Position numbers and translations under genes: made by a program
Notes under the pieces: model-generated
Database searches by the model: none
What the model was told of the DNA's origin: nothing
The model's input: the letters and a program-made list of their open reading frames with translations, nothing else
Shown: positions 13,517 to 37,500 of the stretch, piece by piece
Position numbering within the stretch: the first letter of the stretch is position 1
Layout of the letters: the number at the start of each line of letters is the position of its first letter
Assembly (NCBI GenBank): GCA_937625935.1
Contig: OW569369.1
Coordinates: 372,001-436,000 of the forward strand
DNA length: 64,000 bases
Direction: 5' to 3'
DNA from: Tetramitus jugosus
Lineage: Eukaryota; Heterolobosea; Eutetramitea; Acrasida; Vahlkampfiidae

Positions 13517-14957
13517 ATGACCATATCACCATCTCTTCCCTCATCCTTCAACGCATCATTGGACAGTGGTACTGGTGCAGTTACTTCGCAATTCGTCGAT
13601 CCATCCAAAGTCATTCTCCACACTGAACCTTCGTGCACGGTTCAACATTGGCAACTGAGAGATTTGGTTCAATGTTGTCAAGATGATCCAACGAAACTGT
13701 ACTATGTCAATCATAGATCAGTGTATCGGTATGATACCATCACTAGAAAGGTATGGACTTATTCGCAGCTGAATTCATCATGTGTTGGTGGTTGTGTTTT
13801 GTGCATGTTTATGTGTTAAGTGTGGAAATATGTTCGCTTAACTTGATTTTTTCTAATAATGTTTGTTTGTGTGTGTGTACAAATGGTAATTGTTTTACAC
13901 GTAAACATAGTCCACTTTGGTTCAATCTGTTGATTTTACTCCTGTTTCCATGAGTGTCAATAATGGTTATTTGGTGACTGGTGGACACGAAGCTCAACTC
14001 TCTGTAAAATCATTGAGTGACAATGAAGTCATTCGAACGTATTATCATGTCGGTGGCACGATCAACAATGGGTGTCACATATCGTCTCACCTATGGACAG
14101 ATAGTCCACTCAACAATCATCGAACACCTCGACTCTTTGTGTCAAACAATGACAACACTGTAAAGGTTTATAAACTGCCATCGTTGGCACTGGTTCAGTC
14201 GTTTGAGATGGGAGTAGCATGTAATTTTACGTCGACAACAAGAGATGGGAAACTTATGGCTTCGGTCAGCGATCAAAACGATCTGTTTTTGTATGATATA
14301 TCGTCATTGAATGGCTCAACAACATTGAGCGAACAAGGAACAACAACTACGACAACGACAGGAGGAAGTTTGAATACCAATAATAATAATAATTGTCGAT
14401 TGATTGCCAAGATGCAAGAGTACACAGATGGAGGATTCAGTTGCACATTTGATCCAACAGGCACTAAATTAGCGGCTGCCAGTCAAGATGGAACAGTTGT
14501 GGTTTGGGACTTGAGAAACACGAGACAATGCCTGAGGAAATTCGAAGGAAAGCAAAAGGAGCAGCGAGGTGCATGTCGGAATGTAAAGTTCTCTCCAGTT
14601 GGTTGCATCGATTTGTTGATATTTAGCGAGCATGAGTCCTATGTGCACATTGTAGATATGAGGACGTTTGAACATCAGATTTTATCTGTGTCTGACAATA
14701 TACCGAGTGAGATACGATCCAACAGAGGCACCAATACCTCGAGTAATACTTTTGGAGTGATTGGTGGTGGCATAGGAGGCGAAACCGAGACGAGGAGGCG
14801 TACGTTCCTGGTGGGTCGAAGTTCAATCAATGACATTTGTGGTATCGATTTCAATTGTGATAGTAGTAGCATCTTTGTGGGACTGACGGATCTCATTCAA
14901 GAATATCCTGTCGACTTACTCAAGAGAAGATCGTTTGCCAAGGGAAGCATGTGTTAA
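13517..14957 (+). CDS. WD40 / DUF2415-type protein
   Basis: Two exons, 13517-13750 and 13911-14957, with a 160-nt intron (GTATGG...ACATAG) that keeps the frame; 426 residues. The translation is a beta-propeller with WD-like endings (AAASQDGTVVVWDLRN, DNTVKVYKL). DLLIFSEHESYVHIVDMR and the final SSIFVGLTDLIQEYPVD match the DUF2415-containing WD proteins of fungi and other eukaryotes, whose function is not settled. ATG 13517 was chosen because the upstream continuation has no domain character. It diverges from CLU. Confidence 0.8.
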
Positions 14958-16020: not shown

Positions 16021-16788
16021 ATGATTACACACCTACATCACACGTATCATCGTCTTTCAAGGACCACTGTTGTTTTGCTCCTGGTGTTCCTATTGACATC
16101 ATTTTCTTCGTTCAAGCAAACATCATCCTTGTTGCTTCCACGAATTGACAAGTGTCCAATTCAACATGAACAATCTTTCCAACAACAACAACAACAACAA
16201 CATCAATATCGCTCTCAACCACCATTCAAATCAAAATTTAATGTCAACCACAGTTTTAATGATCATTCTGTTGTTGTTGTTGAAACAACAAAATTTGATC
16301 AATTCAAACAACAACAGCAACTAAAGCAACAACGACATGAAGACGATCATCATCACCATCCAACGAGGAGATTCTCCTTTCCCATTTTTCATCATCAACG
16401 ATCTCATTATTATCATAACCAGTGTCCCTATATTGTCAATCGTCAGAGTCATCATTATCACCATATCACGAATACGAATGATAATAATAGCAAGAGGATG
16501 GATCGAAAAACCAAGACATTGGATTCATGGAATCAATCATCTAAGGCGCGTATCAATCATCATGATGTAGCAACGCCATCACCATTGTCATCACCGTCAC
16601 CGTCATCCTTGTTAGTTTTGGATGATTTGATGAATGATCATGTCATGTCTTCTGGGGACAATATAACGAACGACGACAAGAAGAAGAAGAGGATGATTAA
16701 GAATGATGCGACGACTACTGCCGAGGAATCGAACACGAGCCGTGTTGTTGATCAAGAGAATGACACTACTTTGTCTTTGGTGTCTTAG
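16021..16788 (+). pseudogene. truncated duplicate of the SUN-domain gene (N-terminal 250 codons only)
   Basis: A 255-codon frame starting with a hydrophobic anchor (TTVVLLLVFLLTS) followed by Gln/His-rich sequence. It repeats the 5' part of the SUN gene at 26645, nearly identical from 16060 to about 16771. The copy then leaves homology at ACTACTT, reads six unrelated codons and stops. The SUN domain, coiled coil and C-terminal membrane span are absent, so normal function is impossible. It retains an AAC-rich 5' leader of the kind seen before real genes, so it may still be transcribed. Confidence 0.85.
16060..16771 (+). repeat. direct repeat, left copy (SUN gene 5' segment)
   Basis: Pairs with 26694-27413 in the same orientation. 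By eye about 14 substitutions over 700 bp (about 2%), plus a few codon-sized length changes in CAA and AAG runs. The first ~40-50 bp after each ATG are also related but much less alike. Confidence 0.9.
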
Positions 16789-17249
16789 GCTCAGCTTCTG
16801 CGTCAACATCAGGCACCCGTGTTGACGACTTTTTGGTAGGAACCTTCTTCGGTGCAGATTGAACCGGTTTGGAGGGTGGAGTGGATTGTTCTAGATTCCC
16901 AATCCATGTCTTCGGCTAGCTTAATAATGGTCTCTACTGTACTGTTGGATGGCATGTTATGATCAAGAGGTTGTATGATAGGCTCAGTAACTGCAATGAT
17001 ATGAGTTGTGCTTTGGTTTGTGGGTACTGTTTGTGATTGAGAATTGGCTTCGACTGGATCTTTGTCGTCGCTTTTAAACCTTTCGGTTGACACCATTTCA
17101 GGGTTGGATTTGGATGTGCAAACCTGGTGGCACGGAATTTGTCTTCGAGCAGCAATTCGACTCGAATTTGATTCAATATTTCGTTGTGTCATTTTCACAG
17201 GCGGTGAATACAACGTCAAGAACATTGTCCATCGATGAAGTCGGAGCAA
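16766..17249 (-). pseudogene. 3' end of an unidentified gene, frameshifted
   Basis: The minus-strand frame reads protein-like sequence (SNSTVETIIKLAEDMDWES), then near 16895 the coherent reading shifts by one base to LEQSTPPSKPVQSAPKKV... and runs through a Lys/Pro/Thr-rich tail to a stop at 16768-16766. The tail looks like a genuine disordered C-terminus. The stop codon lies in the last bases of the left SUN repeat, so the gene end coincides with the repeat junction. No family recognised. Confidence 0.5.
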
Positions 17250-17545
17250 ACAATAGACCTACCATGAGACTTTTGAATTAAATCCTTTCTGAGGGATACG
17301 AGCGTCTGATTGCATCAACAATACCATGTTCAGAGTCGGTACCAACAACTTTGATCGTACAACCTGGCTCCCATGTACTTACCTGATTGAATCATTTGAT
17401 TCACCACTGTTTGGTCTCCTGATTAATTCTCACAGGAGGTGCTGATTTGTTCTTTGAATTCCCATGTGGAGAGGACGTGAAACTCTATTGTATAATTCTT
17501 GCGTGCTCCCACCAATTATCTAATGCTCTATCATATCTACAACAT
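17250..17545 (-). pseudogene. gene debris, unidentified
   Basis: Short protein-like stretches in different minus frames without a continuous ORF, such as DNWWEHARIIQ and TWEPGCTIKVVGTDSEHGI, interrupted by stops. They probably belong to the decayed gene ending at 16766 or to a neighbour. No domain assigned. Confidence 0.3.
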
Positions 17546-17550
17546 AACTT

Positions 17551-18170
17551 TTGATGGTCCTAAAAGCAGACAGAAATTTGACCTCGAATGGAATGAAACT
17601 CGGCATTGTCGGACACTATTACAGTGAAGATTTTAACATGCCGAATTTGAAGGGTTTTGTATCAGATAGAGATTTAGTGTTGACAGCCGTTACTAACAAT
17701 GGTCTGGCTCTTCAATTTGCCACTGGAGATGTGAAGGACCGTGAAGTCGTACTGACTGCTGTTAAACAGAATAGATTGGCTTGGCGTTTCGCATCCATCG
17801 ACTATACACAAGATATAGAAGTGGTTAAAGAGACAGTCCAGAACAAGGGAGAGAAATCAAAGATTTTATGAAGGAGATTGTGGGCATTAATGATCGATTC
17901 TTGGACTGGGCTTCTGATAAATAGAAGAAAGATGGAGGAAAACGATAAGGGTATCGTCAAAATGGCAGTCGCAAGCAATAGAAGCGCCTTGCAATATGCT
18001 TCCGATCAACTTCGGAACAATCAAGAGATCGTTCTCGTAGCTGTGAAGAAACAATCGAGCTCGATTCATCCCGCAACAAAAAAGATTTTGTCATAATATT
18101 AGTCACCAAAGAAAGGATTCCCTCTGCTCTTTCTCATGCATCCTCGCAACTTAGACGTGTCTCTCAGTGA
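17551..18170 (+). pseudogene. DUF4116-repeat protein, frameshifted
   Basis: Repeats of the DUF4116 pattern (VLTAVTNNGLALQFATGDVKDREVVLTAVKQN in 17551-17871; MAVASNRSALQYASDQLRNN in 17878-18096) occur in different frames. Between them, in the third frame, is KDFMKEIVGINDRFLDWAS, and after 18096 ERIPSALSHASSQLR. At least three phase changes are needed to follow one protein, so this is a decayed gene. DUF4116 is a short helical repeat known from amoebae, some bacteria and other protists; its function is unknown. Confidence 0.75.
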
Positions 18171-18279
18171 GATCATTAATGGGTAATACGACGTTCCTTG
18201 AACATAAAACTTTTGCGCAGTCAACCATCTTGTCAGTCAACCAAAATAAACACCAAACTCAAAAAACAAAACAATCGAC

Positions 18280-18782
18280 ATGAGGCGTTCTACAAGAGGG
18301 AGGTGTAACAATGTTAGACCGCTTCTGGACAACACCACCAGCCACATCGTTGTAGAGGGCATGCACAATACCTCGCCTGTCAGGTCTATAAGAGAGTCAG
18401 AACGTCAGGAAGTTAAACTACAATCACGTCCACTGTTCAATGCTATTCATAGTTTAGGAAAGCATTCAGATTCTACCTTCAAGTGGTCAGGAGTATTGTG
18501 GACGAAATGCAAGCAAGATGTCTCGGTACAAAGGAATGTACAGCAACGGATCGTAATTTTTGTTTGTTCTTATCAAGAGGATTACTTATTATAAAAACCG
18601 AAAAAAAGTGTTTCCACACGGGAAACACTCGCTGGGCCATAAAAACGACATTTTTTGGCAAGACCTTGTACACGGCAGTTAGATACTCTTCCATCACAAA
18701 TCGGAACCGGATGCTGCTGGAGACTCCGCACATCTCGTTTTTAATACAACAAATTCATTCTCTTCTTGGAATATTGTTTTGA
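18280..18782 (+). other. overlapping short ORFs, unidentified
   Basis: Plus-strand frames at 18280-18594 and 18483-18782 overlap, and a minus frame (18733-18479) covers the same ground. None shows a recognised motif, and none is clearly preferred by composition. Most likely debris of the island. The gap 18097-18279 likewise shows only the tail of the DUF4116 debris. Confidence 0.25.
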
Positions 18783-18816
18783 TCCCTTCTTCAGGGATTC
18801 GTTGCGAGGGCCTCCA

Positions 18817-19010
18817 CTACCGTCTGGCCTCACCTAGAATGCACTTACTACTGTCCTCTCCCTTCACAACATAACCTCCATAGCGACATGTTTTAAAATT
18901 GTTCAGAACTGAGTCCGGGTTTCTATTCTGCTCATCAAAAAGTGCAATACCATGACCTTCTAATTTGTCTTTTACACTCTTCTTCGCCTTCTTCTGCACA
19001 TTTCCCTAAA
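18817..19010 (-). pseudogene. unidentified coding fragment
   Basis: A minus frame with convincing amino-acid composition (KLEGHGIALFDEQNRNPDSV, NNFKTCRYGGYVVKG) and no ATG at its start. A stop lies immediately upstream, and a TTTAG just before GGAAATG could be a 3' splice site. It may be a last exon or a broken gene. Family not recognised. Confidence 0.35.
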
Positions 19011-19599
19011 TACACATCGCCTGTTCTTCACCACTCATTTGACAAAATCCGGAGATTGCTTCTAGGTGCAGCACGAGATATATACCTATTAATATATGCA
19101 CTCAAGCTTGACTGATGAATATTCATATTTTTGCAACGAACTTGTGTTTGTGTTTTATAGTAGTCAATCCAGTCCAACTCCTCTTTAGAAAGACAGCTCT
19201 TCCTAATTTCTAGATTTTGTCTCCACTATTTGTATCCAACTGTGCTACTTTTTTGTGGTAAATTTTTGTTGGTTAGAGTTGCAAATTGGTGTGCACGTGT
19301 TCTCGCCCAAAGATATTCAATCAAAAAAAGGAGAATACTGTATTCATTGCATAATTGGAAAGAAATTGAAAAAAATGGTAGTACACTAACTAAAGTATTA
19401 AATACTCACAATTTTCCTTCTTTTGTAATGACAAAGAAGGATTATTCTGAAACAAGTAACCCAAAATAGCGAATGGAGATCACCATTTCCTACAGAATTT
19501 TGTAACAATCATCATAAATTTCCCAAAATTTTTTTAAGCAGTAATTCTATTAAAGAGCAGAATAATAGAAGGTATGAAATTATTGACTCAAAATTTCGC
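19011..19599. other. AT-rich stretch of the island
   Basis: More AT-rich than the surrounding housekeeping DNA. One plus frame (19230-19469) has a partly protein-like end (KEIEKNGSTLTKVLNTHN) but no recognised domain. Nothing else supported. Confidence 0.3.
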
Positions 19600-19994
19600 C
19601 AATTCAAGCTGAGTACAAATGACTCCCTTCCAATCATTCAAAATCAATCTGAGAAGGAAAAAGAGAGAGAAACTTTTATCGAACTCGAAGATGATGCCAT
19701 ATGTAAGATACAGAGACAATCTTCGAAAGAGAATTATTCTCCGATGTTGTTATGGGACAATCTGGAGGAATGTCTTATCCATCAAGTCAATCGTTTGTCA
19801 TTGAAAGTACCTCCGAAAAAGTTAAGAAGAAACCTGGTCGCCCAAAGAGGACTTCGGATGAATTCAAAGACCAAATGGACGGTCAAAGAGAACTCATTGT
19901 TTCGCAGGACAGTTCGCAAGGGATTTCTTTAGAGCAATCTCCTCTAAAACGACCAAGAGAAGACAAATTATCATCCAACAACAAGAAAAGATAG
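19600..19994 (+). pseudogene. decayed gene with AT-hook-like motif
   Basis: One frame reads STNDSLPIIQNQSEKEKERE...DDAICKIQRQS, and around 19690-19700 the coherent reading passes to another frame (ERELFSDVVMGQSGGMSYPS...). That continues to KKKPGRPKRTS, an AT-hook-like core, and ends SSNNKKR stop at 19994. A single-base frameshift best explains the break. Possibly a DNA-binding, transposon-linked or nuclear protein. Confidence 0.4.
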
Positions 19995-19999
19995 GGGAG

Positions 20000-20210
20000 C
20001 GATTCCGTAGATGAAGGCACAGGAATTTCAAGAACAACATCAAGTTTTGTGGAAATGATGCTACAGTGGCTGGTAGACCCAGACATACAATGACAGTGAC
20101 AGAGAAGAGTTTCCAGGAAATTTTTCAAAAGAATTCCGAAGTTATGTGTTTGACGAATGTCATTTCCCACCCAGAAAAAACAATACACAATAGGAGGTCC
20201 ACGGGTAGTT
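20000..20210 (+). pseudogene. coding fragment with GRPR motif
   Basis: A plus frame reads NFKNNIKFCGNDATVAGRPR followed by TMTVTEKSFQEIFQKN and ends at a stop near 20212. The layout (basic GRPR linker, then a helical segment) resembles the DNA-binding front of some transposases, but the family is not certain. It may belong with the AT-hook fragment upstream. Confidence 0.3.
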
Positions 20211-20540
20211 AAGAAAGATGAGTTTGATGAGAAATTTCACTCATTTCACGATCAAAAACCTTCGACAATCATCTCATTTGATTCATAGAGAGTTCAACCA
20301 TCGGCTGATTGGGGTATTCGAAGGAAAGGATAAGCTTCTTGGGCTCTTACACCTCTTATGGCCAAGCACGAGAGGACGAAAGAAATTTAAATACTGAATT
20401 GGTATCTCTTAGAAGAGGAAAAGAGTTAAAAGGACGATGCTCGTTTCCAGTTTTCGATTCTTGGCTGAGTCGATATCACTTCTGCTCATTACACGCTGTC
20501 TTAGCAATTGGCAGGGGAATTATAAAATAATTAACATACA

Positions 20541-20806
20541 AGTGTATCAGAAGACAATTTCAAGAATCGACATCTGAACTTGAATGTATTGAAAAACTTA
20601 AGGACGTGGAACTTTTGTTTCTCAACTATGGAATGGATCTGGAGGAGTTGGAGTGTGTTGCCAAATCTGATGACGCAATGAGAGATCTGGCGAATTTCTG
20701 TCAAAAGTACAGTATTTCTGTCCACAAGGAGCTTATGGGGACTGTTGCTGAAATTCAAAAGTGGTATGGTAATTTGAAGAATCATTTGATGAGGAATGGA
20801 CTTTGA
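20541..20806 (+). pseudogene. helical coding fragment, unidentified
   Basis: A plus frame of about 85 codons with strongly helical composition (ELECIEKLKDVELLFLNYG, ANFCQKYSISVHKELMG) ends at 20806. ACAAG just before it could be a 3' splice site. No ATG at its start. It directly precedes the PiggyBac-like remnant. Confidence 0.3.
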
Positions 20807-21496
20807 ATCAGATAGAACCAGTCATCTATCACTTTTTCAATCTCAGTTCATGGTATCTCTGTCTGATCAGGGATTCTTTTCGAGGAGTTAGAATTCATTT
20901 CAAATTGACATTCTTGGTGTTTTTTGTTTTGCCTTTGAGACTAATTTCTTCTATCACTGATCCGTCATGTGATCTTGTTTCATATTTCATGGCTATATCA
21001 AGTTGTTTTTTGCGATGGATATGTGAAACGCAATACCACAAGTTGACTTTGGATGGAGTACAGAGAGGTTTTGGTGTCACTAGTACAGCCCGTAGCAATT
21101 GTACCACAAACCTGTTCAAGGAAGTGGCAATGAAAAATTTGAAAGAGTGTGATGGTTTGAAACTATTCAGCTGCTTTTTACGACCCCTTTTCTGTGCGCG
21201 TCATGGAAGGATAAAGGATCGAAGCCAACAAATTTCTATTCGAATCTCCATGCCAATGATGTGGTTCATACATACAGATTTATTTTGGAAAACAGCGATT
21301 AGCTAATGTTCCATTAATTGCAGATGATTACACAAAGAATGGGATGGGTCATGTTGATGCCTTCAACATGAACATGGTCAATGAAAAGCCCTTACATAGG
21401 AATGCTTCCTGGAGACGTTGTTGCTTCGATGCAATGTTGAAGGTGGTCCTTGTGAATAGTTGGATCTGTAGGGCCAAATCACATGAAACTGGTTGA
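20803..21496 (+). pseudogene. PiggyBac-type (DDE_Tnp_1_7) transposase remnant
   Basis: Three consecutive pieces in different frames follow the family's C-terminal half. GFGVTSTARSN and KEVAMKNLKECDG fit the GTxRxNR-like segment. WKDKGSKPTNFYSNLHANDV (from 21204) fits the W-x-D-x-K...LST/H segment. RLANVPLIADDYTKNGMGHV with DAFNMNM and SWRRCCFDAMLKVVLVNSWI (21296-21496) fits the dYnk-MGGVD-DQ and WW-LVNA ending. Stops and phase changes make it dead. The family is named from motif order. Confidence 0.65.
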
Positions 21497-21635
21497 AACT
21501 ATTGAAACTAGGATGACTCGATAGGCCATGATGTGGACATTGTAGTTGGCGTATTCATTTTGCTTGAAACATTGTATCCATCGAGATATAGCGTTTCTGA
21601 GTGTTTGCCTGTGATGCCGTTTGTGAAAAAAGAGC

Positions 21636-22909
21636 ATGACTCGAAGCAAAAGAACAGTGCCAAGATTCAAGGAAGAAGAAGGAGAAGGAGTGATTTTACC
21701 AACAGAATCAGAATTTGATCCAGTCTCTAAAAGACTCTATCAAGCTGTTCAAAGTATGTTGTCCACAATTTTGAAACAACGTGGAGCATAGAAATGATAT
21801 ACACAAACGTACTGGCAGTGAACGTTTAAATGATATATATTTGTAATTCCAGATGATGATCACTTTGTATTCTTCACTGCAAGCAGAGTATCTCTTGAAA
21901 ATGATGGTACATGGGGAAAAGGCAAAAGCAGATGCAATGGAGAAGTTCTTATCCAACACTAAGGGATTGACAAACTTCAAAATCATTGAGAAAGTATCCA
22001 AAGTAGATCAAACTGTTCTGGGTTATGACATCAAAATGCTGAAGGGTGGTCAGTGCGATCTAGTCATTAAAAATTACAAAGAACTGATTGATGCTCTCCC
22101 AGGATTAGATAGAAATCAGAGTGCAATTCAGAGAAACATTTGGAAACTTTGGGAAAATATCGTCAAAAAGTATTTGGAAGTGAACTTCGGTAAGCCTCAA
22201 GTTACAGCAGACGTGGATACGTTTGCTAAATTGGTTAGACCTGCAAACTCCACTACTGGTAGTTTTCCATATTATATGCATATCATATGGGCACACCTTC
22301 CAGATGACTTTTTTTTCAGATTATTCCGTGGCCACATGACCAAATTCGTGTGTATTGTGAAAAGGAGTCTACCTTAGATGAGGCTTATGTAGTGCTCTTT
22401 GAAAATGAAAATTGTTTGTCGTATAGCACTACGTCCATGCCAAATGATGTCTCAGTTAGCTGAAAATGTTTGTGACTCAAGCAATGTGTTACAAAGAAAC
22501 AAAAGATATGAGGAGTCTGTTGTGAAAAACAATTACATAACTGCCGAGCAAGCTAAATCATATATTAATTATGCAGTAGTCAAAAAGAAATGACGAATGT
22601 AATGCGGGAATATGCTTCACTGATTCAACTTTGTAGTAAGTTGATTAAGAAGGATTCGGATGTTACAGCTAATGAACAGGAAGGAAAATACTTATTTTTA
22701 CAATATCACGGGAAAAATGGAAGGTATCTTGCAGAAGTTATCAGGAGTTGGTGATTGAAGTTAAAGATATTGTTGGCAATGATGTTATTCTTTCTTATAT
22801 GGAATCGGATCATGAAATAGCTCTGGAGAGACAAAAGGACTTCGAAGTTATTGGCGAGTTTACTGTGGTCGATTGTGAGGAACTCGGTGATGTTGAAAAT
22901 ACAATGTAA
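21636..22909 (+). pseudogene. unidentified gene decayed by repeated frame changes
   Basis: The reading begins at ATG 21636 (TRSKRTVPRFKEEEGEGVIL) with a probable intron from 21754 (GTATGT) to 21852 or 21886. It continues in frame 1 (LWENIVKKYLEVNFGKPQV), goes to frame 0 at 22320 (IIPWPHDQIRVYCEKES), frame 1 (RYEESVVKNNYITAEQAKS), frame 0 at 22590 (NVMREYASLIQLCSKLIKKD) and frame 2 at 22742 (QELVIEVKDIVGNDVILSYM), ending at 22909. The first change at 22320 could be an intron (TTTTTTTTCAG just before it); the others look like indels. No family recognised. Confidence 0.5.
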
Positions 22910-23060
22910 AATAAATTAGTGTTGGAGTTGTGGAAAATGAAACAGATTTTGTGATTTATTTTTTCTTTGTGAGTGGGTTGGTTTGTGTTTTTGCACTCTC
23001 CTCCAAATTTTTGTTTTTGGCTTACCCAAAAATCAAACAACCTCATTGTGGGTCAAATTG

Positions 23061-23533
23061 ATTGTGATATATCGGGAACATATTCCTGATCATGAGAGGG
23101 AAATGTCTTCAATGGACAACGTAATAGGGTAATTATTCCAATATCATCTGGATACAATTCACCCTTTGGAATATCTATACGGCAATACAACTTTCTTCCA
23201 GTAATGCTGATAGCCTTTGAATCCTTTATCTAGGGCAATATACTCATCAGAATCAAGACTCTCCCAAACGGAATTCTCTGGAAGTGCAATCAATTGAGAG
23301 TATGTCTTACTTCCAATATACGTATCTGACAAACAATCATTAGCACTACAGAACACAAGTTTTGTAAATTTATGGCCATACTTCTTTCCAGAATACAAAA
23401 TCTTCACAATGCTCTTACTAACAGATTGCTCAACTCCATCCCCTACTAAATTTATCTGAACTCCTCTCCAACTAACTCCCAGACTATCTCTAATACTCCG
23501 GGGATGTAAACAGATGAAACTTACCCATACCAT
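23061..23533 (-). pseudogene. DDE_Tnp_4 (Harbinger/IS5-like) transposase fragment
   Basis: The minus frame 23533-23159 contains NLVGDGVEQSVSKS (first Asp region, matching DGT.. in the family), YSGKKYGHKFTKLVFCSAND and EYIALDKGF (second Asp, matching the GDkGY/ADrGF motif), then LPYRYSKG. The reading moves one base and continues ELYPDDIGIITLL...DQEYVPDISQSI to about 23061. The N-terminal third is absent and there is a frameshift, so it is a dead remnant. It sits just upstream of the RT-like gene on the opposite strand. Confidence 0.65.
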
Positions 23534-23710
23534 GAGAGAAACAAATGTAGCGTAATTGTATCTGTAGATTTGAGATGTGTCGCAATCTGCAATCCAAGCT
23601 AAAAGTCATCAACCACATTTTGTCTGATCCATATACTCCTACGGAATTTTGTTTTGCTTCACTTTACAAAAAAAGTTTTCCGTCGACAAAAATTGTGGCC
23701 ACACAAAAAT

Positions 23711-25249
23711 ATGGCATCAACAGCAACACCACTTTTAGATGTTCTTTTCAAGGAGGGACTGTTCCATCCTGATCTCCCACCATGCTTTGTAAATCACTTT
23801 AATAGATCAACGATGCCAAACGAAGCACCGGTTGAGCCAGTTTCTATCTCTACGATGACAAGGGGTGTTCCCCATTCATTGACTATTGTCCATCCCAAGC
23901 TTCATGGTAACCTGTGTGAAGTGCTTGTGCGACACAAAACTGAAATTGTTCAGCATTTGAAAGATGCATACCCAAAAAAGGAGTTTGTCTCACTTGCTGC
24001 GATCAGTATAATCAATGCATTTGAAAACAATGTTGTTGATCAAAGTTCGCGTAGAGTTTTCATTGAAAGCAATCTAATGGAATATCGAAAATTGCATGGT
24101 TTGTATGGAAAAATACTTCTAAAGGGCACAATCTCAGATCTATATGGATCCATATACACTCATACGATTGCCTGGGCAGCTCATACAAAACCTGTAGCAA
24201 AAAAAGATCAGTCTGATGCGCTTTGGGGTAATGTGATTGACAAGGCAGTAAATTCCACATGTTACAGAGAAACCCATTCAATACCGTTTGGAACCCCAAC
24301 ATCCATTGTTATCTCAGAAATCATTCTCTCTGCTGTCGATAAACAACTACAGGAAGACCTGAAAGGCAACATTCACGGATTTAGAAATGGCGATTTCTAT
24401 GAAATTGTTGTTAGGTCTCGTGAGGAAGCATATATGATTGAAGGAAGGCTCCGTAGTGTATTGAATCTCTATAAGCTCAGAATGAATGTAGATATTCTTG
24501 AGCTTCCTCGTCCTGTTAGACCTCTGTCTCATCAAAAATATGTGGAGATTATCTCGCCTCTCGCTCAGAAAGCATTTGGAGATGATAATGAGGAGTACAT
24601 GGTCGACTTGTTTGACTCTATTCTCTCTGTGTCACAAATGTTTCCTAGAGAACATATAGTGTCATATGTTCTACGCAAATGGGAGAACCATATACCAGAC
24701 TGGATTGACACTTCATTTGAACTTCTCCTTCAGCTTCTAATCCAAGAGCCACCATCAATCAGAATTCTTTCAAAATACTTGCTACCTACCTTGATTCCTC
24801 CAAAGCAGAAGTTGTTACAAGAAGCGCTGGAAACGTTTATCATAAACGCCCTCAATGAGCTTTCACTCAATAATATTGCCTGGGCGTTATACGTTCATCT
24901 GATGGCAAAGGTATCAATTAATATGAAGCTCAAGCAATTGGACGGCTTGGACAATTCGATAATTAGCATTCTTCTGATAGAGTTGATTAATGAGAACCTA
25001 GTAACATCGGATGACAAACAAGAAATTGAGACGAAGGCAAGTGATGATTGGTTATTGTGTTACTTCAAGGGCAACAAAACAAGAGCCAAAGTATTCCGTA
25101 AGCCACAAAAGTCACAAGCAGCTATACCTGTTCGAACATCAGATCCATCAAATATACCCACACTAGATGAAAGGGTCGACAATGTGGAGAACAGGTTAAA
25201 GCAGCTAGAGAAGAAATCATCAAAATCATCGTCTGTTGATGATGTTTAA
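23711..25249 (+). CDS. reverse-transcriptase-like protein of bacterial Abi/DRT type, active site altered
   Basis: 512 residues from ATG 23711 (the frame opens at 23654 without ATG). The order matches bacterial defence or unknown-group RTs: SLTIVHPKLHGNLCEVL (about 56-72), motif A region TISDLYGSIYTHTIAWA (140-156), motif B SIPFGTPTS (190-198), motif C region GFRNGDFYEIVVRSREEA (223-240), then NVDILELP (259-266). A long helical C-terminal part follows, with LSLNNIAWALYVHL resembling the alpha-repeat domain of those proteins, and a short coiled coil at the end. Bacterial relatives read DISDFYPSIYTH and YxDD; here the motif A Asp is Thr140 and YxDD is N226-G-D-F229, so polymerase activity is unlikely. 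No intron; intact frame among pseudogenes. Its stop abuts the kinase stop. Likely an acquired, repurposed pseudo-enzyme; family call from memory of motifs. Confidence 0.75.
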   Translation: MASTATPLLDVLFKEGLFHPDLPPCFVNHFNRSTMPNEAPVEPVSISTMTRGVPHSLTIVHPKLHGNLCEVLVRHKTEIVQHLKDAYPKKEFVSLAAISIINAFENNVVDQSSRRVFIESNLMEYRKLHGLYGKILLKGTISDLYGSIYTHTIAWAAHTKPVAKKDQSDALWGNVIDKAVNSTCYRETHSIPFGTPTSIVISEIILSAVDKQLQEDLKGNIHGFRNGDFYEIVVRSREEAYMIEGRLRSVLNLYKLRMNVDILELPRPVRPLSHQKYVEIISPLAQKAFGDDNEEYMVDLFDSILSVSQMFPREHIVSYVLRKWENHIPDWIDTSFELLLQLLIQEPPSIRILSKYLLPTLIPPKQKLLQEALETFIINALNELSLNNIAWALYVHLMAKVSINMKLKQLDGLDNSIISILLIELINENLVTSDDKQEIETKASDDWLLCYFKGNKTRAKVFRKPQKSQAAIPVRTSDPSNIPTLDERVDNVENRLKQLEKKSSKSSSVDDV

Positions 25250-26584
25250 TTAATCATTCTCATCAGACATGTTATTCTTGATTGCAGGATCTTTCAGATT
25301 TTGAGCATCTTCCATATTCAAATGGAGATTATTGTCAATCAAATCAATAAAGTTTAGAACGACCCTACAAGATTGCGGCCTGTTTTCTTCCTTGAGCTCC
25401 GTACACCAATTGTATAGTACTTGGAACACTGGTGGTATGTTGCTACAATCGTGAGACTTATGTTTTCCACTTTTGATTCTGCATCTGATCTTGCTTTGAG
25501 AAGAAGTCGAAAAGTTCGAGTATGGATCCTCTCCGGTTATCAGCCAAGCAACCATGACTCCTAAAGAATAAATATCCGATCTTTTCGAGTAGAGTGGCTC
25601 CTCACCATCCTCCCAAGCCTCGGCGATCTCAGGGGCTAAATATCTGACAGTTCCACAGGCCCGAGATTGAACATAAGCAGTAGATTTATGTGTGGCGTGG
25701 TATTGAGTACTGGCTTCCCTAAGTGTTGTCAATCCAAAGTCAGCAAGATAGACTTGCTCAATACCAGATTCAAGTCCTATAAGAAAGTTGTCTGGTTTAA
25801 TATCTCGATGAAGCAATCCTTTGGGAAAATCTAAAGTACGAAGTTCATGAATGTAGTCTACACACTCAAAACATCTCTTTATGATTGCTAGTGGATTCGT
25901 GACCTGTTTCACCTTATAATTTACGTACTCACATAAATCACCCTTCTCATAATACCTCATTACGATATCAAAGAATGTCTTATCTTCTGTTACATATGAT
26001 GCTAAATAACGGGTACAATAGTGTGCATCTAGGTTCTTTGTTATACCTATCTCTTGAAGAATAGCAGCAAGACTGCCGGAAACAATATTGTGACGGAATC
26101 TTTTCACAGCTACAGTTTGACCATTCACCTTTGCTTTGTAAACAGCAACACCAGCGCTTTCAGTAGAAAGCGTTCGCGAAATTTTCACATCTTTTTCAGA
26201 TATCTCGCCCGATGGCTCAAGCTGCCCATCGTTCAATAGAAGGTGTTGCTTGAGAATCAATTGACATTGATGGCTAAACTTATTCATTGGCCACTCTAGA
26301 AGGCGCATCTGTGGCTTCACATAATCATGTCTTTCCAATATCTTCAATAGAATGGATGTTGACAGGCTGACCTGTGAAGCATAATTACAGAGAAAAAACG
26401 GAGTGAAACCCACACGCCCAAAAGCACCAAAGTATTCACCATTATTAACCAGAGCATCCATAATCCGGGCCACTTGATCGTTGTTGAGAACTGGACGTAT
26501 CTGGCTCAAATTCGCCATTGCTGTGTTGGCCTCCTCGTAACACGACGCATTACACAACGCCAAAACAAGTGTTTCATCAGCCAT
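25250..26584 (-). CDS. protein kinase with unique N-terminal region
   Basis: 444 residues from ATG 26584 (upstream extension to 26683 rejected because it runs into the SUN gene leader). The kinase domain is complete: VAVKRF (Lys161), QEIG (Glu178), HRDIKPDNF (259-267), DFG (282-284), APE (317-319), DIYSLGV. It is therefore probably active on Ser/Thr or dual substrates. The first ~120 residues (NNDQVARIMDALVNNGEY, FFLCNYASQVSLSTSILLKI) form a helical domain I do not recognise. It converges on the RT-like gene, the two stop codons directly adjoining (TAA|TTA), and starts 60 bp from the SUN gene. Confidence 0.9.
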   Translation of the reverse strand: MADETLVLALCNASCYEEANTAMANLSQIRPVLNNDQVARIMDALVNNGEYFGAFGRVGFTPFFLCNYASQVSLSTSILLKILERHDYVKPQMRLLEWPMNKFSHQCQLILKQHLLLNDGQLEPSGEISEKDVKISRTLSTESAGVAVYKAKVNGQTVAVKRFRHNIVSGSLAAILQEIGITKNLDAHYCTRYLASYVTEDKTFFDIVMRYYEKGDLCEYVNYKVKQVTNPLAIIKRCFECVDYIHELRTLDFPKGLLHRDIKPDNFLIGLESGIEQVYLADFGLTTLREASTQYHATHKSTAYVQSRACGTVRYLAPEIAEAWEDGEEPLYSKRSDIYSLGVMVAWLITGEDPYSNFSTSSQSKIRCRIKSGKHKSHDCSNIPPVFQVLYNWCTELKEENRPQSCRVVLNFIDLIDNNLHLNMEDAQNLKDPAIKNNMSDEND

Positions 26585-26644
26585 GAGTGTTGTTTTTGTT
26601 TTTTTTGAAGAACCTGCAACGGATTTTTTGGAACACCAACCGAA
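26585..26644. promoter_or_regulatory. 60-bp divergent promoter, kinase / SUN gene
   Basis: All of the sequence available between the two start codons. No motif is recognised. It is much shorter than the leader in front of the truncated SUN copy at 16021. Confidence 0.4.
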
Positions 26645-29245
26645 ATGATTGCACTTCCACATCTCACCCATCGTCCTCAGCAACGTCTACTACGGATCAC
26701 TGTTGTTTTGCTCCTGGTGTTCCTATTGACATCATTTTCTTCATTCAAGCAAACATCATCATTGTTGCTTCCACGAATTGACAAGTGTCCAATTCAACAT
26801 GAACAATCTTTCCAACAACAACAACAACAACATCAATATTGCTCTCAATCACCATTCAAATCAAAATTTAATGTCAACCACAGTTTTAATGATCATTCTG
26901 TTGTTGTTGTTGAAACAACAAAATTTGATCAATTCAAACAACAACAGCAACTAAAGCAACAACGACATGAAGACGATCATCATCATCATCCAACGAGGAG
27001 ATTCTCCTTTCCCATTTTTCATCATCAACGATATCATTATTATCATAACCAGTGTCCCTATATTGTCAATCGTCAGAGTCATCATTATCACCATATCACG
27101 AATACGAATGATAATAATAGCAAGAGGATGGATCGAAAAACCAAGACATTGGACTCATGGAATCAATCATCTAAGGCGCGTATCAATCATCATGATGTAG
27201 CATCGCCATCACTATTGTCATCACCGTCACCGTCATCCTTGTTAGTGTTGGATGATTTGATGAATGATCATGTCATGTCTTCTGGGGACAATATAACGAA
27301 CGACAACAACAAGAAGAAGAAGCAGAAGAAGAAGACGATTAAGAATGATGCGACGACTACTGCCGAGGAAGCGAACATGAGCCGTGTTGTTGATCAAGAG
27401 AGTGGAACTACTTGTGCGACAACATTGATTCATGATGAACAACAGGGTCGTCAGAATGATGGTGATGGTCTGAATGACATTTTGTCATCATCAACAACAA
27501 AGACAACAACGAAACAACAGAGACAAGTACCACTGCCACTCTTTAGAGAAAAGCAACCATTGTCGTCTCCGTCTACACCGGAAAAATCAGCGACTGCACC
27601 TGCAACAGCAACGACAACTGCTTCTTACGACGCTGAAAAGAAAAAGTTTAATTTTGCAGCGTACGATGTGGGAGCAAAGGTGTTGAGTACGAATCCTGAA
27701 GCCAAGAAGGCATCTCGCATCCTGAACGAAGACAAGGACAATTATATGCTCATACCGCGACACGTGGACAAAAAGTATATTACGATTGAGTTGTCCGAGG
27801 AGATTTTGATGAATAGTTTTGCGTTGGCAAATTTTGAGTACTATAGTAGCTCTCCTCACTTGTTTCAAGTGTTGGGATCGAGAGAGTATCCGTGCAGAGC
27901 GCCCAAGTGTTACTGGGAGGTGTTGGGCACATTTGAAGCACAGAATACGAGATCTGTTCAAAAGTTTATGCTTCAGAAGCCGTTTGTGGCACGCTATGTG
28001 AAATTTCTGTTTTTGACACAGTATGGAGAGACAGAGTACTTTTGGACGCTGACTCTCATACGGGTTCATGGATCCACACTGTTGGAAGATTTGAGAGATG
28101 CTTTGTATGCGTCAGAGAATTCTGCGGCCAGTGTTGGTGAATCTACTGCTGGTGCGAGTACTACTGTTGCTTCGTTGTCTGATCCCTCGAATCATAGTGC
28201 CACCTCTAGAGTCGGCAGTACACCATTCAGTAGCAACCAGCAAAGCGGATTGAGTAGTATTTCTGGTCAGTTGGATGCAATGATATTGGATATTGAAGCC
28301 AGTTCTGTTCCAATTGATGCACGAATGAATAGTGCAAGTGGTCGTAATACCATTGTCAACTCAGATGTTGCTACTGAAGATGATGATATGACTGTTTCTC
28401 GAGTTGATGGCGAGTCGGATGATGAGGGAGCTGCACCTAGTGTTCACAAGGAGCGCAGTGACAGTCCAGAGTCCAGTGACAACATCTTAAAGTCCCTGTT
28501 AATCAAGATTCAGAGGCAGGAAGAGTCACACAAAACACTTGCTGCTGATATTCAAAAGATTCACAGCAAGTACATTCGTACGTTTCGAGATATTCAAAGA
28601 ATATTGAACAATACGTCCTACGAGCACAATATGCTAGCATCAGCAGTCTATTCGATGGCAAATGAGTTGAAGAATGAGATTATTATTGAGGTGCGCAAAG
28701 GTTACATGAAGGAGATTCACAACCTTCGTGTAATGAATGAGCACAGAATGCAACTTATGCTGCACAACCTGACGGAAGCTATTCATGGTCTTCGAACAGA
28801 CACATCTCAATCAGTGAACAGTTACAAGAAGTTTATGATTATTTGCATGAGTGTACCATTAATTCTCATGGTGTTTGTCCTCTTGCTATGTATCCCATCA
28901 TCGCAGGTTGCAATCATCAAGCAGCCAGATGTCATTAGAAAATTATCGTCGTCGAACAATAGTAGTACTGAAATTGCAAAGAGCACTCCTTCGAAGAAGA
29001 GCTCTAGAACGCGAACAATAGAAGAGCTAGAGAATGATTCCGATATAGAGAGTGATACAATCAACAAACCTGTTTTTATCAATTCAATCCAACAAGAAGA
29101 TAAGCGAGAGAGGTCATCGAGTTTTGCGGCAGAGAGCGCAGCAAAGACAAACAACCCGGTTTCACTTCTTAAGCACATGTACAAGTATTTTACGGAGCCT
29201 CAATCAGAGTCCAGCGTGACAAGGTCACCTTCTAGAGTGCGATAG
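26645..29245 (+). CDS. SUN-domain membrane protein, SLP1/SUCO (osteopotentia) type
   Basis: 866 residues. An N-terminal hydrophobic anchor (about 16-36) precedes Gln/His/Asp-rich sequence. A SUN domain covers about 335-480 (FAAYDVGAKVLSTNPEAKKA, ADKKYITIELSEE-like strand, FQVLGSREYPCRAPKCYWEV). After a Ser/Thr-rich linker come a coiled coil (about 615-720) and a C-terminal membrane span (about 730-752, IICMSVPLILMVFVLLLC). A mid-protein SUN domain with a coiled coil and one C-terminal span is the ER-resident SLP1/SUCO arrangement, linked to folding and nuclear-envelope protein stability. The 5' 0.75 kb is duplicated at 16021. The last 14 nt overlap the convergent SCOC-like gene. Confidence 0.88.
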   Translation: MIALPHLTHRPQQRLLRITVVLLLVFLLTSFSSFKQTSSLLLPRIDKCPIQHEQSFQQQQQQHQYCSQSPFKSKFNVNHSFNDHSVVVVETTKFDQFKQQQQLKQQRHEDDHHHHPTRRFSFPIFHHQRYHYYHNQCPYIVNRQSHHYHHITNTNDNNSKRMDRKTKTLDSWNQSSKARINHHDVASPSLLSSPSPSSLLVLDDLMNDHVMSSGDNITNDNNKKKKQKKKTIKNDATTTAEEANMSRVVDQESGTTCATTLIHDEQQGRQNDGDGLNDILSSSTTKTTTKQQRQVPLPLFREKQPLSSPSTPEKSATAPATATTTASYDAEKKKFNFAAYDVGAKVLSTNPEAKKASRILNEDKDNYMLIPRHVDKKYITIELSEEILMNSFALANFEYYSSSPHLFQVLGSREYPCRAPKCYWEVLGTFEAQNTRSVQKFMLQKPFVARYVKFLFLTQYGETEYFWTLTLIRVHGSTLLEDLRDALYASENSAASVGESTAGASTTVASLSDPSNHSATSRVGSTPFSSNQQSGLSSISGQLDAMILDIEASSVPIDARMNSASGRNTIVNSDVATEDDDMTVSRVDGESDDEGAAPSVHKERSDSPESSDNILKSLLIKIQRQEESHKTLAADIQKIHSKYIRTFRDIQRILNNTSYEHNMLASAVYSMANELKNEIIIEVRKGYMKEIHNLRVMNEHRMQLMLHNLTEAIHGLRTDTSQSVNSYKKFMIICMSVPLILMVFVLLLCIPSSQVAIIKQPDVIRKLSSSNNSSTEIAKSTPSKKSSRTRTIEELENDSDIESDTINKPVFINSIQQEDKRERSSSFAAESAAKTNNPVSLLKHMYKYFTEPQSESSVTRSPSRVR
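26694..27413 (+). repeat. direct repeat, right copy (SUN gene 5' segment)
   Basis: Matches 16060-16771 in the same orientation; the start-to-start distance of the two gene copies is 10,624 bp. Homology ends at ACTACTT, after which this copy continues as the intact SUN gene. Confidence 0.9.
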
Positions 29246-31581: not shown

Positions 31582-34500
31582 ATGGAGGAGATTGGTGACT
31601 CTTCTGGGGATTCTAGACTAGATTGGATTGCAATCAAAGTCAATAGTTGCCTAAAAATATCAAAGCCAAAATGGAAAGAGTTCTTCTCATTGGAAGAGAA
31701 CAAGTATGTGAAACAAAACCAATTATCCTCGTACTTCACTTTATCTCACACTATTATCAAGAAAATCAATCCAAAAATTCTTCGCGAGTGACAATGAAAT
31801 GCACTTGTTCGTTGCAAAGTCCTTACTTAAGGATGAACTAACGGCCACGCTGCAACCCATACCCACTAACAAAAAGGTTGTTGTGATCATGAAGAGTCAA
31901 CCAGTAAAGATTGCAGTTGACAACTATGAAGACTATTTGTATTACGAGGAAATGAGTCACAATTCACTGAGACAAACAGTGTTACTATTGGAGGAATTGT
32001 ATCTCCCAATGATTCAAAACTCAAAGAATCAAAAGCATTGGCCAAAGGTTGTTGGACAAGATATCGTGAGACAGTTTCATCGATTTGTTGGTATCCTTGA
32101 TATGTTCATGGGTCAAACAGCAGGAAACACTATTCTGCCGATTCCTCTAGTCGAAGAGTTGACAAATGACAGAAACGAAGAAGACAGAGGATTGGTTCAT
32201 TCATTGGAATCATCCATCATTGACTGGACAAGAGAAATTAAGGTTAGTCTTCTAATTTGACAAAGGTCGATTATTTTTCTGAATCTAACACAAATTTCAC
32301 ACAAAAAACCAATCACACAGAAAGTCATTGAAAAAGACAGTGAAAAAGCGTTGGTGGAGGCAGAAGAACAAGGCGAGTATCTAGGACCACTCGATGAGAT
32401 TCATTTTTGGAAGTCAAAGTCAGCAAATCTCGCCAACTTGAATGATCAATTACGTGACGACAAGGTCACACAGATCATGTCTATTTTAGAGAAGAGTTCC
32501 AGTACATATGTTGTCGGTTTTAAGAAAACATTGAGTGAGCTAGGAGAAGGTAAGATCCACTTTCGAACTGTTTATTGTCTTTTTTGTTGGCGATCTGACA
32601 CTCCTTTTTTGTTCCATACCAATTAGCTTTGAAACAAGCAACGGAAATTTACGTGTACTTATTGCCGCTGAAGAACCATTTGACAGAGATAACAGATGGA
32701 TCAACCGAGATCAAGAATTTGCCAAAGCTTTTCAGACCAATTGTCCATATTATATATCTAGCATGGCAAGAGTGTCCTCAATATAATTCGAATAATGTAG
32801 GAATTTTAATCAGACAGATATGCAATGATTTAATTTCTCAAATATACAATCATATTGAGCCGGCACAACTGTGGGAGAACGACCTAAGTTTAACTTCAAC
32901 AAAGTTGCGTGAATCAATAGTTACCGCGAATTCCTTCAAGAGTGTTGTTGCTGAGTATCGCGATCTAACATCTAACGATAACCCCCAGCGAGTGTGGAGA
33001 CTAGAACGGAATAGAGTTTTCACACGATTTGATTTATTTATTGAGCGATTACAGGATCTATTAGACATAGTCGTACATATAGAGGAGTTTTCTCAATTAG
33101 AAAAAATTGATATCGGAGGACTCAAGGGAGGTCCGCTCAGTTTGATCGTTACCCAAATTTATAGAGAGTTTCAAAAATTACAAACAAAGATTCAGACGGC
33201 CAAGTACGATGTTTTAGATGTGAAGCAAACGCAATTCGAGAAGGACTTCTTGTATTTCTGTACTTGTATTCAGGATTATGATAAGAGATTAGGATACGTA
33301 ATTTCCAAAGGGTATGAAGCATGTCCGACCATTTCTGCCCAATTCAAATTATTAGAATCATTTGAAACGCATATGAGAAGAGATATTATAAAAACAGAGG
33401 TTGAAGACAAGTATATGAAGTTGTTGAATGCATTTAATAACGATTTGACGACCGTGTACCATATTTTTAATACGCAAAAGGATGATCCTCCTTTACTGAA
33501 CAATTTACCTCGAGTTTCAGGGTCGCTAGCATGGTGCCATGCATTGATCCAACGTATCGCGTGGCCTATGCAAAAGATTGTTCGGCTAAACGACTCTCTA
33601 ACTCAAACAGAGGTAATGAGTACGATAAAGACAAAATACGTTGCCCTCATTGACAAGATTAAAAATTATCAAGTGTTGCTATATGCGCAATGGAGCGATG
33701 GTATCGAGGAGCGAGCCCTTGAAAAGATGAACAATAAGCTGCTTCTAAGACTTCCTGACAGTAGAATATTTGTTAATTTTGACAAAACGTTAACAGCGTG
33801 CATCCAAGAAGTCAAGTATTTAACACACTTCAACATGGAGGTTCCAACTTCAGCTGCAAAAATCTTCGAAAACCGAGACGAATATCGGAGTTACACGAGC
33901 TCCTTGAATCATATTACTAGGCAATATAATACAGTGATGCAAACACTGTTAGATGTTGAACGACCACTTGTGCAAGATCAATTAAAATCAATTGATTTAA
34001 AACTTTCACGGGGAATAGAAGTGATGGATTGGAACAACAACGATATTCAAGCCTTTATCGATGATTCGAAAGATGGAGTTAAGGATCTGTACAATCGATT
34101 GAATGTGTTGAAAGGTAATGTTAAAACGATTGAAAAAATGGTGAATAGTTGGAAGGAACTGTACACTGTTATGACAAACGAAGAGGAGGAATTAGAGGAA
34201 ATTGAGTACAAACCCTCTCGTTTCGTTCAAATGATGACCTTTTGGAGAAATAGAAATGGAGCTCGACCATCAGACAACGAGGAATGTGTATCTGTGACTA
34301 ACGCCATGTTCATGAAATGGAAATCTAAAACGAACGCATCTGTGAAACAGTTGAGCGATGTTGTTAAACATGGACAAAAAATTCACCTCATTGTGTCAAG
34401 TAGCAATGAAAAAGTTGGTGTGGCCGCTAATTCGCCTGAATGGCGGGGGTATATCATATACTTGAACAATTTAGTTTCGACTGGTCTCTATCAAGCAATT

Positions 34501-37500
34501 CAAACGAGTTTAGAATACCTTATCAACTCTTTTATAGCTGTCCAAAATGCAAACGATAATGGTGTACCAATAACAGATGATCTCAATATTCTACTCCAAG
34601 TTAGACTAGAGTTGCAAGGAAATCAAGCATCCTTCAAACCCGATGTGAGCAATGATACTCAAAGCATACAACACAAGGTTAATTATTGGCTCGAAAAAGT
34701 GTTTGATCTGTCAATGCAAATTCGGCGTTTGGACGACCCCTCTCAGAATTTTTATCCACTCATCAAGGAGAGCGCAGAATTGGATGAACTAAAAAGACGA
34801 GTAAAGGATTTGCTCGACCTAACTGTTCAACGAATGATCGAACTCAAGAGCTCATTCGTTCGATATGCATATCTTTGGGAGGAGAATCCAAAAGAGTTTC
34901 TGCACAAGTTTGTGCATGGGAAGAGTGAACTTGATAAAATGTATGGAGATCTTGATGATGATGACGATGATGACGATGAAAAGCATGATCAACCTCCGAG
35001 GCGAACTTTAGAAGAGTTCGAGTATCAAATAGTACGATATGAAAAACTTTTGCAAGAAATACAGGAATTACCCGAGACAGTGTGTTTTGGTTGGCTAACA
35101 GTGGATTGTCAACCAATACGTGATGCTATTATAATATCTGCTGGCAAATGGCGTCTAACATTCCTTGAGTACCTTCTTAAACAAGTACAAGATAATCTGC
35201 TGGAATTCGATAAATTTGTTGAACATTCCAAAGAAGGACTCGTACAGGAAGTAGGCAAAAACGATTACGAAAAGCTGAAAGAGGTAATGGGTTACTTGCT
35301 GCACATCAAAGAACGGCCTGAAAGTAAAAATGGTGAGAACCACTTTGAGCCGCTCAAGCAGACAGTTCAATTGCTCAAGAAGTATGAAATCAAGGTTCCG
35401 CAGGAAATTGTGACTCAACTTGATGATGCTAAGAACAAATGGAAAGATCTACAAAAATTGTATTTTGAAGTGAAAGATAATTTAGCTGGTCTTCAGAATG
35501 AGGAGATTAAGAAGATTAGTGCGGCAGAAGCCAATTTCATGCATGAGTGCGCAAACTATCGTGAATACTTTCTTAAAGCGGCACCGTTTAATTATGACAT
35601 CAGTATAATACAAGCATATCGGAAACTGGATGATGTTCATTCTGAATTGTCAAAATATGAAGATGAATTGAAAAATATGAGAGAGAAACAAAAATTATTC
35701 ACTCTCATACCGAATAACGGAAAGCCTGTCAAGGATTGTCGCATTGATCTTAGGTTACTCAAGAAGATTTGGGATCTGGCAAGCTTAGTAGATAGTCAGT
35801 TCGCAGAATGGAGAAATATTTCATTCTTGCAAATTGACTGTGAAGATATTCAAAACGAAACAAAGATATTGCGCAAGGAATTGCGCGACTTTGACAAAAA
35901 AGTTAAAAGATGGAATGTATTTCTCACTTTGCAGCAATCTGTGCAGAATTTTATGGACACACTGCCGCTGGTCCAACAATTGAGAAACAACGGTATGAGA
36001 GATCGGCATTGGAAGGAACTCATGGATAGAACGGGAGTTAAGTTTGAATTATCAAACAATTTTAAACTTGATAACTTGTTAGCACTGAATTTGCATCAGT
36101 TTGCGGACGAAGTCACCGAGATTGTAGACAAGGCTACAAAAGAAATCAAAATGGAAAAATACTTGAGCGACTTAAAGAAGCTCTGGGGAGATTTACGCTT
36201 TGAATTTAAGGATCACCCCGAAAATCCGATGAAAATAGTTCGTATCCCAGAAGAAGTTGTTGAAAATTTAGAAGACCATCAGGTTCAACTTCAAAATAGT
36301 CGTTCTAATCGCTCTGTAGACCACTTCATGGCAGATATTGATGAGTGGCTAAAAACTCTGGGAGATGTTGACACAATAATTGCACTGTTGACCGAAGTCC
36401 AGAGAAAGTGGTTGTACCTCGAAAATATTTTCATTGGCTCCGAGGACATTCGTGAGCAGCTCCCTGATGACACAAAGAGATTCGAGGGTGTAGATCGCGA
36501 GTTAAAGAAGATCTTGAAACAAGCTGAAAGCCTTCCACAAATCACGCAATTTTGTTCTCAACTGGAACTCGAAGCAACGCTAAATCTGCTACAAGAACAA
36601 CTAGATGTATGTGAGAATAAGTTGTCCGCGTATTTGGAAGAAAAGAAAAAAGCATTCCCTCGATTTTATTTTGTGTCCATTCCAGATTTGTTGGATATTC
36701 TCAGCAAAGGAGGTCAATCACCACATTTAGTAATGAAACATATGCCAAAGCTCTTTCAAGCAGTTCAAACATTAAAGTTCCGAGAAGATGAGAACGGACA
36801 TAAGACAAACGAAGCAGTAGGTGTGTATTCAAGAGAAGGAGAGTATGTTGAATTCATAGAACCTATTCTTCTTTCGGGAAAGGTGGAAATTTGGCTCCAA
36901 AAAGTTTTGACCACAATTGAAAAATCTCTCCGGTCAATCCTTAGTGAAGGTATACAAACCTATGAGGAGAAACCGAGAGAAGAGTGGCTACTGCACTTCC
37001 CATCGCAAATTGTGCTCGTTGCATGCCAGATATACTGGACCCAGGATGTTAATGTTGCGTTCGAAGCGTTAGAAGAAAACAACGAAGGAGCCATGAGGAA
37101 TTATTATAACAAACAGATTGATCAACTCAATAAGTTGATCAAGATGGTTCAAGGTGAATTAACAGCCGATGTTCGCCAAAAAATTATGAATTTGGTCACA
37201 ATTGACGTGCATGCAAGAGATGTAGTAGAGAAACTAATCTTGAGTAGTGTCGTTTCATCTCAAGCATTTGAGTGGCAATGTCAATTGAGACAACGCTGGG
37301 ATGACGCGAATCAAGACTGTATAATTGAAATATGTGATGCTACGTTCAAGTATGGCTATGAATATCTCGGAAATGGTCCGAGATTAGTGATTACCCCACT
37401 GACAGATAGAATTTATATCACATTAACTCAGAGTTTACACTTGATTATGGGTGGAGCGCCAGCTGGTCCGGCAGGAACAGGCAAAACGGAAACAACAAAA

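Follow-up and report, generated by a model that had tools for sequence, protein, structure and literature searches.

A reverse transcriptase of the DRT6/DRT4 branch with a lost active site, encoded in the genome of the heterolobosean Tetramitus jugosus

Among the reverse transcriptases (RTs) of the UG/Abi group, the Abi enzymes have a three-fold axis architecture, and AbiK is described as having a catalytic triad of Asp163, Asp247, and Asp248, an arginine in the fingers hairpin that binds deoxynucleoside triphosphate (dNTP; Arg96, which is Arg72 in HIV-1 RT), and no activity after the single changes D247N or Y44F (PMC9508834). DRT4 (UG15; PDB 9vdo, 9vdv, and 9l9s) is reported to synthesize untemplated random single-stranded DNA (PMC13213688), and DRT6 (PADLOC Drt6; PDB 9wy8) is a bacterial single-gene defense RT. 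A subset of prokaryotic defense modules is described as conserved in eukaryotes (PMC11249213), and telomerase (TERT), for which a shared origin with bacterial DRT10 has been proposed, provides a proposed precedent for the eukaryotic use of a UG-type bacterial RT lineage (PMC12632851). In the literature that we covered, at the level of titles and abstracts, we found no report that the single-gene Abi/DRT4/DRT6 branch is represented in eukaryotes. Here we describe a gene in a eukaryotic chromosome, that of Tetramitus jugosus, whose product (hereafter the RT protein) belongs by descent to the DRT6/DRT4 branch of these enzymes and has lost catalytic residues that its relatives keep. The gene lies in a window of 64,000 nucleotides (C26:372001–436000, contig OW569369.1) of an assembly of 26,348,746 bases in 56 contigs, and the coordinates of the features discussed are collected in table 1. 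The S-adenosylhomocysteine hydrolase encoded in this assembly is 74.5% identical (350 of 470) to PDB 5v96, the enzyme of Naegleria fowleri, a value that we read as speaking against N. fowleri itself. We regard it as highly probable that the gene encodes a real, eukaryote-resident, and catalytically dead DRT6/DRT4-type protein.

The RT gene is a single open frame that begins with ATG, ends with TAA, and contains no internal stop; given the base composition of the surrounding insert, a run of 512 codons would stay open by chance with a probability of about 2e-16. A sequence-only reading of this DNA had described an intact single exon with the motifs of bacterial defense RTs, and all of the motifs that it named are present. 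The homology that these motifs implied is confirmed by profile search: the best PADLOC match is Drt6 (1.6e-61; no curated cut-off is given for the PADLOC models), with residues 9–453 on profile positions 4–447 of 511, followed by five Drt4 models (1.6e-50 to 7.7e-32) and then by UG14, AbiP2, UG30, and AbiK. Comparison with the PDB by sequence alone gives the same picture, with 9wy8 (DRT6) at 1.1e-20 followed by DRT4/UG15 entries, Abi-P2, and AbiK. The Pfam RT models do not match the RT protein, and a Pfam match to Sen15 (E = 0.23) was discarded as noise. As the sequence-only reading had predicted, the structural model has an RT fold, with palm and fingers fused to an α-solenoid, and it aligns to DRT6, DRT4, and AbiK.

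For comparison we assembled relatives from collections in which eukaryotes are few or absent. A search of 5.8 billion proteins, in which 7997 candidates were scored, returned nine proteins (a repeat search from an alignment gave the identical nine), of which P0002 and P0003 fit Drt6 best and P0004 and P0006 fit Drt4 best. From a scan of bacterial and archaeal genomes we kept the best 80 of 382 confirmed relatives, and a scan of viral contigs gave 37. The 80 kept genome loci all carry bacterial record titles, and the other homologues are viral-contig loci or database proteins; the Drt6 profile also has matches in 3 of 14 control genomes, including that of the archaeon Methanosarcina acetivorans. 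We took one frame from each of the 117 loci, discarded identical sequences, and added the nine proteins, which gave 124 homologues; removal of those shorter than 470 residues left 111, which were thinned by shared words to the 88 used for conservation and for the tree.

Twenty-one aligned columns are near-invariant (at least 95% identical across the 88 homologues), and the RT protein keeps 16 of these: P23, P62, SIYTH (147–151), W155, D177, T188, G194, E203, D210, R225, D228, and L256. The five that it has changed are R55H, D140T, G190S, D229F, and T260V. The sequence-only reading had called the active site altered at Thr140 and at NGDF; the alignment confirms both changes, and the loss is wider than that reading had noted, extending to R55H, G190S, T260V, and the lysine that precedes T260 in 88 of 88 homologues, which is deleted in frame together with two adjoining columns. 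We take the Gly190 column to belong to the motif B region and the deleted lysine to be that of motif D. The motif-A and first motif-C aspartates are retained by all 88 homologues, with Asp or Glu at the second motif-C site, and the motif-A aspartate is present in every member of the set of 124, among the matches listed. The RT protein thus keeps D228 as the sole aspartate of the catalytic triad. By analogy with AbiK, the position of residue 55 is the probable counterpart of the dNTP-binding hairpin arginine, and the stretch from residue 23 to 55, taken to hold the counterpart of the AbiK priming tyrosine (Tyr44), contains no tyrosine; 71 of the 88 homologues have at least one there and 17 have none, so that this site is not universal.

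Set beside its nearest described relatives, the RT protein differs from DRT6 in lacking the hairpin arginine, the motif-A aspartate, the glycine of the motif B region, the second motif-C aspartate, and the Lys/Thr of motif D, and in possessing a predicted C-terminal helix with RhxxhE motifs. Unlike DRT4, it lacks the residues for DNA synthesis, and in comparison with AbiK it has lost two of three aspartates and has a loop without tyrosine. We consider it nearly certain that the RT protein no longer polymerizes.

The predicted C-terminal helix contains two RhxxhE motifs, RVDNVE (residues 488–493) and RLKQLE (residues 495–500), that are one heptad apart. None of the 111 homologues that reach 470 residues has an RhxxhE motif in its last 70 residues, and the full-length sequences of these homologues, 60,443 residues in total, contain the motif 21 times and never doubled; shuffling of the query tail yields the motif in 1.5% of cases and the doubled motif in 0 of 100,000. 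Two consecutive RhxxhE motifs are described in the trimeric coiled coil of L1ORF1p, and such motifs stabilize parallel trimers (PMC5940361); L1ORF1p and the RT protein are unrelated, and their likeness is confined to the short trimer motif. AbiK mutants that do not synthesize DNA are reported to be mostly monomers, which their authors explain by a trimer that is stabilized by DNA (PMC9508834). Given that the RT protein would make no such DNA, other means of holding a trimer may be needed, and the tail, which may offer a dead descendant another route to the trimer, is a candidate.

Based on these observations we hypothesize that the genome of a single-celled eukaryote acquired a gene for a single-protein bacterial defense RT of the DRT6/DRT4 type, which would have lost its polymerase chemistry there while its open frame, palm/fingers fold, and α-solenoid were retained. 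The RT protein would then most likely act as a pseudoenzyme, a three-fold scaffold in which the C-terminal coiled coil, instead of a DNA product, holds the subunits or helps to hold them, and the channel between palm and solenoid would bind either a partner protein or a nucleic acid in single-stranded form. The computation shows the ancestry, the predicted fold, the loss of catalytic residues, the location in a eukaryotic genome, and the intact frame. We infer the function, expression, and selection of the gene and its transfer from a prokaryote, as well as trimer formation and ligand binding by its product, from sequence and predicted structure. The joint reading of a transferred, disarmed, and retained DRT pseudoenzyme that acts as a coiled-coil three-fold scaffold is, in our estimate, about evenly balanced between true and false; taken by itself, the trimeric scaffold held by a coiled coil is rather improbable. 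Similarly doubtful is the fuller version, a domesticated dead DRT that is a constitutive trimer, with the coiled coil in place of the DNA of AbiK, and forms a ring that binds single strands or partners, perhaps in antiviral immunity; the sensing or sequestering of viruses by the RT protein is one guess. A natural DRT pseudoenzyme would permit a direct test of the roles of the Abi/DRT scaffold beyond DNA synthesis, and an intact frame and predicted shape that persist despite lost catalysis may signal a new use in the eukaryote.

Several observations weigh against this proposal. The AlphaFold2 input was an alignment of DRT homologues, so that the agreement in fold is partly built in. The tail helix is predicted with low confidence (pLDDT block means of 43, 65, and 53, with residues 457–488 and 506–512 under 50), and a C-terminal heptad helix as such is not unique to the RT protein, since 3 of the 111 homologues equal it in crude heptad score over their final 80 residues. 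Moreover, Abi-P2 is described as a stable trimer without DNA (PMC9508834), and the structure of inactive DRT4, a closer relative, was deposited with six chains (9vdv), so that a coiled coil is perhaps unneeded. The net charge of the RT protein is -4, with -11 in residues 271–445, which does not favor tight binding of nucleic acid; the 5th to 95th percentiles of homologue net charge span -18 to +18, and charge is uninformative on the ligand. To these points are added the codon choice and the absence of orthologues considered next.

Maintenance of the RT protein for a function appears to us somewhat probable. No orthologue was found in the collections searched, with their few or no eukaryotes, and selection can be argued only by indirect signs. 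The contrary explanation, that the transferred and disarmed gene is a non-functional relic that drifts in a decaying insert with its frame open by chance, is unlikely but has a substantial share of the probability, and the same signs bear on both. The codon choice of the RT gene (+0.024 bits/codon) lies above the null (-0.101 +/- 0.026) and shows partial adaptation to the host; it is at the same time 3.1 standard deviations below the mean of simulated host-table genes (+0.089 +/- 0.021), equal to the lowest of 1000 simulations (+0.024), and its adaptation is below that of 14 of the 19 other scored open reading frames of the window. An unconstrained frame would have a 95% probability of a stop after 0.041 substitutions per site, and if the divergence between the two SUN-domain gene copies that flank the insert (0.049 per site) is taken as the neutral divergence of the RT gene, 3.6 stops are expected, or 1.8 at half that divergence. 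Within the insert, a decayed copy of a frame from contig C37 shows 58 differences from it over 1569 bases, together with 10 gap openings. At this neighbor's rate of indels and stops, with two thirds of indels taken as frame-shifting, the probability that the RT frame stays intact would be about 1e-4, rising to 0.01 at half the divergence, which speaks against a relic; for stops alone the corresponding values are 0.07 and 0.26, which a relic could accommodate, and the neighbors may have decayed before they arrived here, which weakens the estimate as a clock. A relic also accords with the position of the gene in a degenerate patchwork and with its very long branch (2.39 vs. a median of 0.48), compatible with relaxed or changed constraint. 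Against it, six private losses at catalytic positions and in-frame indels have accumulated with no stop or frameshift, a pattern that points in the same direction as selection, and the greater part of the near-invariant columns has been retained. The suggestion in the sequence-only reading that the frame is under selection is thus likely to be right, with indirect support from a frame that is open beside decayed neighbors and from codon use that tends toward that of the host.

The natural reading of the ancestry is transfer from a prokaryote or from a phage-borne copy. The sequence-only reading had proposed horizontal transfer from bacteria, which the bacterial and viral relatives favor, with the qualification that collections with few or no eukaryotes bias this result. 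In the tree (89 rows) the RT protein, owing to its long branch, groups with no phylum, its smallest well-supported set being of 43 rows, and we claim no donor phylum. An alternative order of events, in which the donor was an already dead prokaryotic or viral DRT relative and the disarming preceded transfer, we consider distinctly improbable. Within the tree set, full-length identity is at most 26% (456 columns), and local stretches reach 41–43%, so that the true donor lineage is unsampled, and the genome loci are the best 80 of 382, both of which leave room for such a donor; yet all of the representatives retain the motif-A and first motif-C aspartates, as do all six further RT proteins found with residues 120–512 as the query, each with the motif-A aspartate and DD. 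Viral contigs searched directly with the RT protein alone yielded three pattern matches and no relative, and a library of viral structures gave generic RTs and RNA-dependent RNA polymerases (best E = 4e-6), with giant-virus RTs at about 1e-4. Delivery of the RT gene by a giant virus is unsupported by either search. That the gene is not an Abi/DRT relative but a eukaryotic retroelement or telomerase-type RT that became domesticated is very improbable. The closest solved fold of the RT protein is neither TERT nor an R2-type non-long terminal repeat RT. In favor of such an origin, a Drt6 profile search of the host genome found, besides the RT gene, three weak matches (E 0.003–0.007; L011, L012, and L013) in long frames of 1074–1293 residues that are possibly retroelement RTs. 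Bacterial contamination or a mis-assembled contig is very improbable, although the gene is found once in the assembly and has no eukaryotic relative in collections with few or no eukaryotes. It lies in the interior of a contig of 489 kb, as the sequence-only reading of a eukaryotic location requires, amid genes for dynein heavy chain (33373–45285), RhoGEF, CLU/eIF3, SUN-domain, WW/WH2, and rhodanese-domain proteins, together with a spliced WD40 gene of two exons that are in frame across a GT..AG intron (13751–13910). Repeats native to the genome end at 23517 (an 80% copy, in C11) or 23631 (a 68% copy, in C52), leaving 193 or 79 bases up to the start codon, and the stop codons of the RT gene and of a kinase gene abut with zero bases between them. 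These eukaryotic neighbors, native repeats, and the abutting kinase argue strongly against contamination, and the relatives that we found are too distant for the gene to be a contaminating copy of any of them.

Table 1. Features of the RT gene and its surroundings (window coordinates)
Feature	Coordinates	Strand	Basis or remark
DRT6/DRT4-type reverse-transcriptase pseudoenzyme gene	23711..25249	+	Single open frame, 512 codons; profile, PDB, and model comparison
Codon 55, His (homologues: Arg in 87/88, Lys in 1/88)	23873..23875	+	Second strand of predicted β-hairpin
Codon 140, Thr (motif-A catalytic Asp in 88/88 homologues)	24128..24130	+	Alignment
Codon 190, Ser (Gly in 88/88 homologues)	24278..24280	+	Alignment
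Codons 226–229, NGDF at motif C (Asp228 kept; second catalytic Asp replaced by Phe229)	24386..24397	+	Alignment
Codons 259–260, Asn-Val (three columns lost in frame, then T260V)	24485..24490	+	Alignment
α-Solenoid, C-terminal, about residues 271–459	24521..25087	+	Predicted secondary structure; alignment to DRT6/DRT4/AbiK
C-terminal helix, about residues 484–505, two RhxxhE motifs	25160..25225	+	Predicted, low confidence
Insert between two copies of the SUN-domain gene 5′ part	16772..26680		About 9.9 kb; borders are the end of the SUN-copy match
Protein-kinase gene, intact, with N-terminal extension	25250..26671	-	Tail-to-tail with the RT gene; context only

The two copies of the SUN-domain gene 5′ part that border the insert (16048–16771 and 26681–27413) have 36 mismatches in 740 aligned bases; the downstream copy has an open frame from an ATG at 26645, which overlaps the 5′ end of the kinase gene. 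Neither the RT gene nor the kinase gene has another DNA copy in the genome by a search method in which very common words are passed over, and other genome matches of the kinase gene are 31–40% identical. The part of the insert from 17378 to 23631 is a patchwork of pieces that are 66–99% identical to other places in the genome. At least 15 of the 52 listed places are no more than 10 kb away from a contig end, where contig extents are known; further copies are in the deep interior of contigs C37, C22, and C43, and the end of a contig is not necessarily that of a chromosome. Our guess is that the patchwork may be material of a subtelomere-like kind, situated about 100 kb into its contig.

Two further elements of the patchwork were observed. 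An element of 75 bases (18753–18827) has at least 18 copies across the genome at 95–99% identity, and ARAGORN, with bacterial settings, found no tRNA between 12000 and 32000, including at this element. The decayed copy at 19281–20848 corresponds to an intact frame of 1101 amino acids in contig C37 (L018:3798–7103, plus strand), which has no Pfam match at E 0.001 and is possibly an undescribed mobile-element protein.
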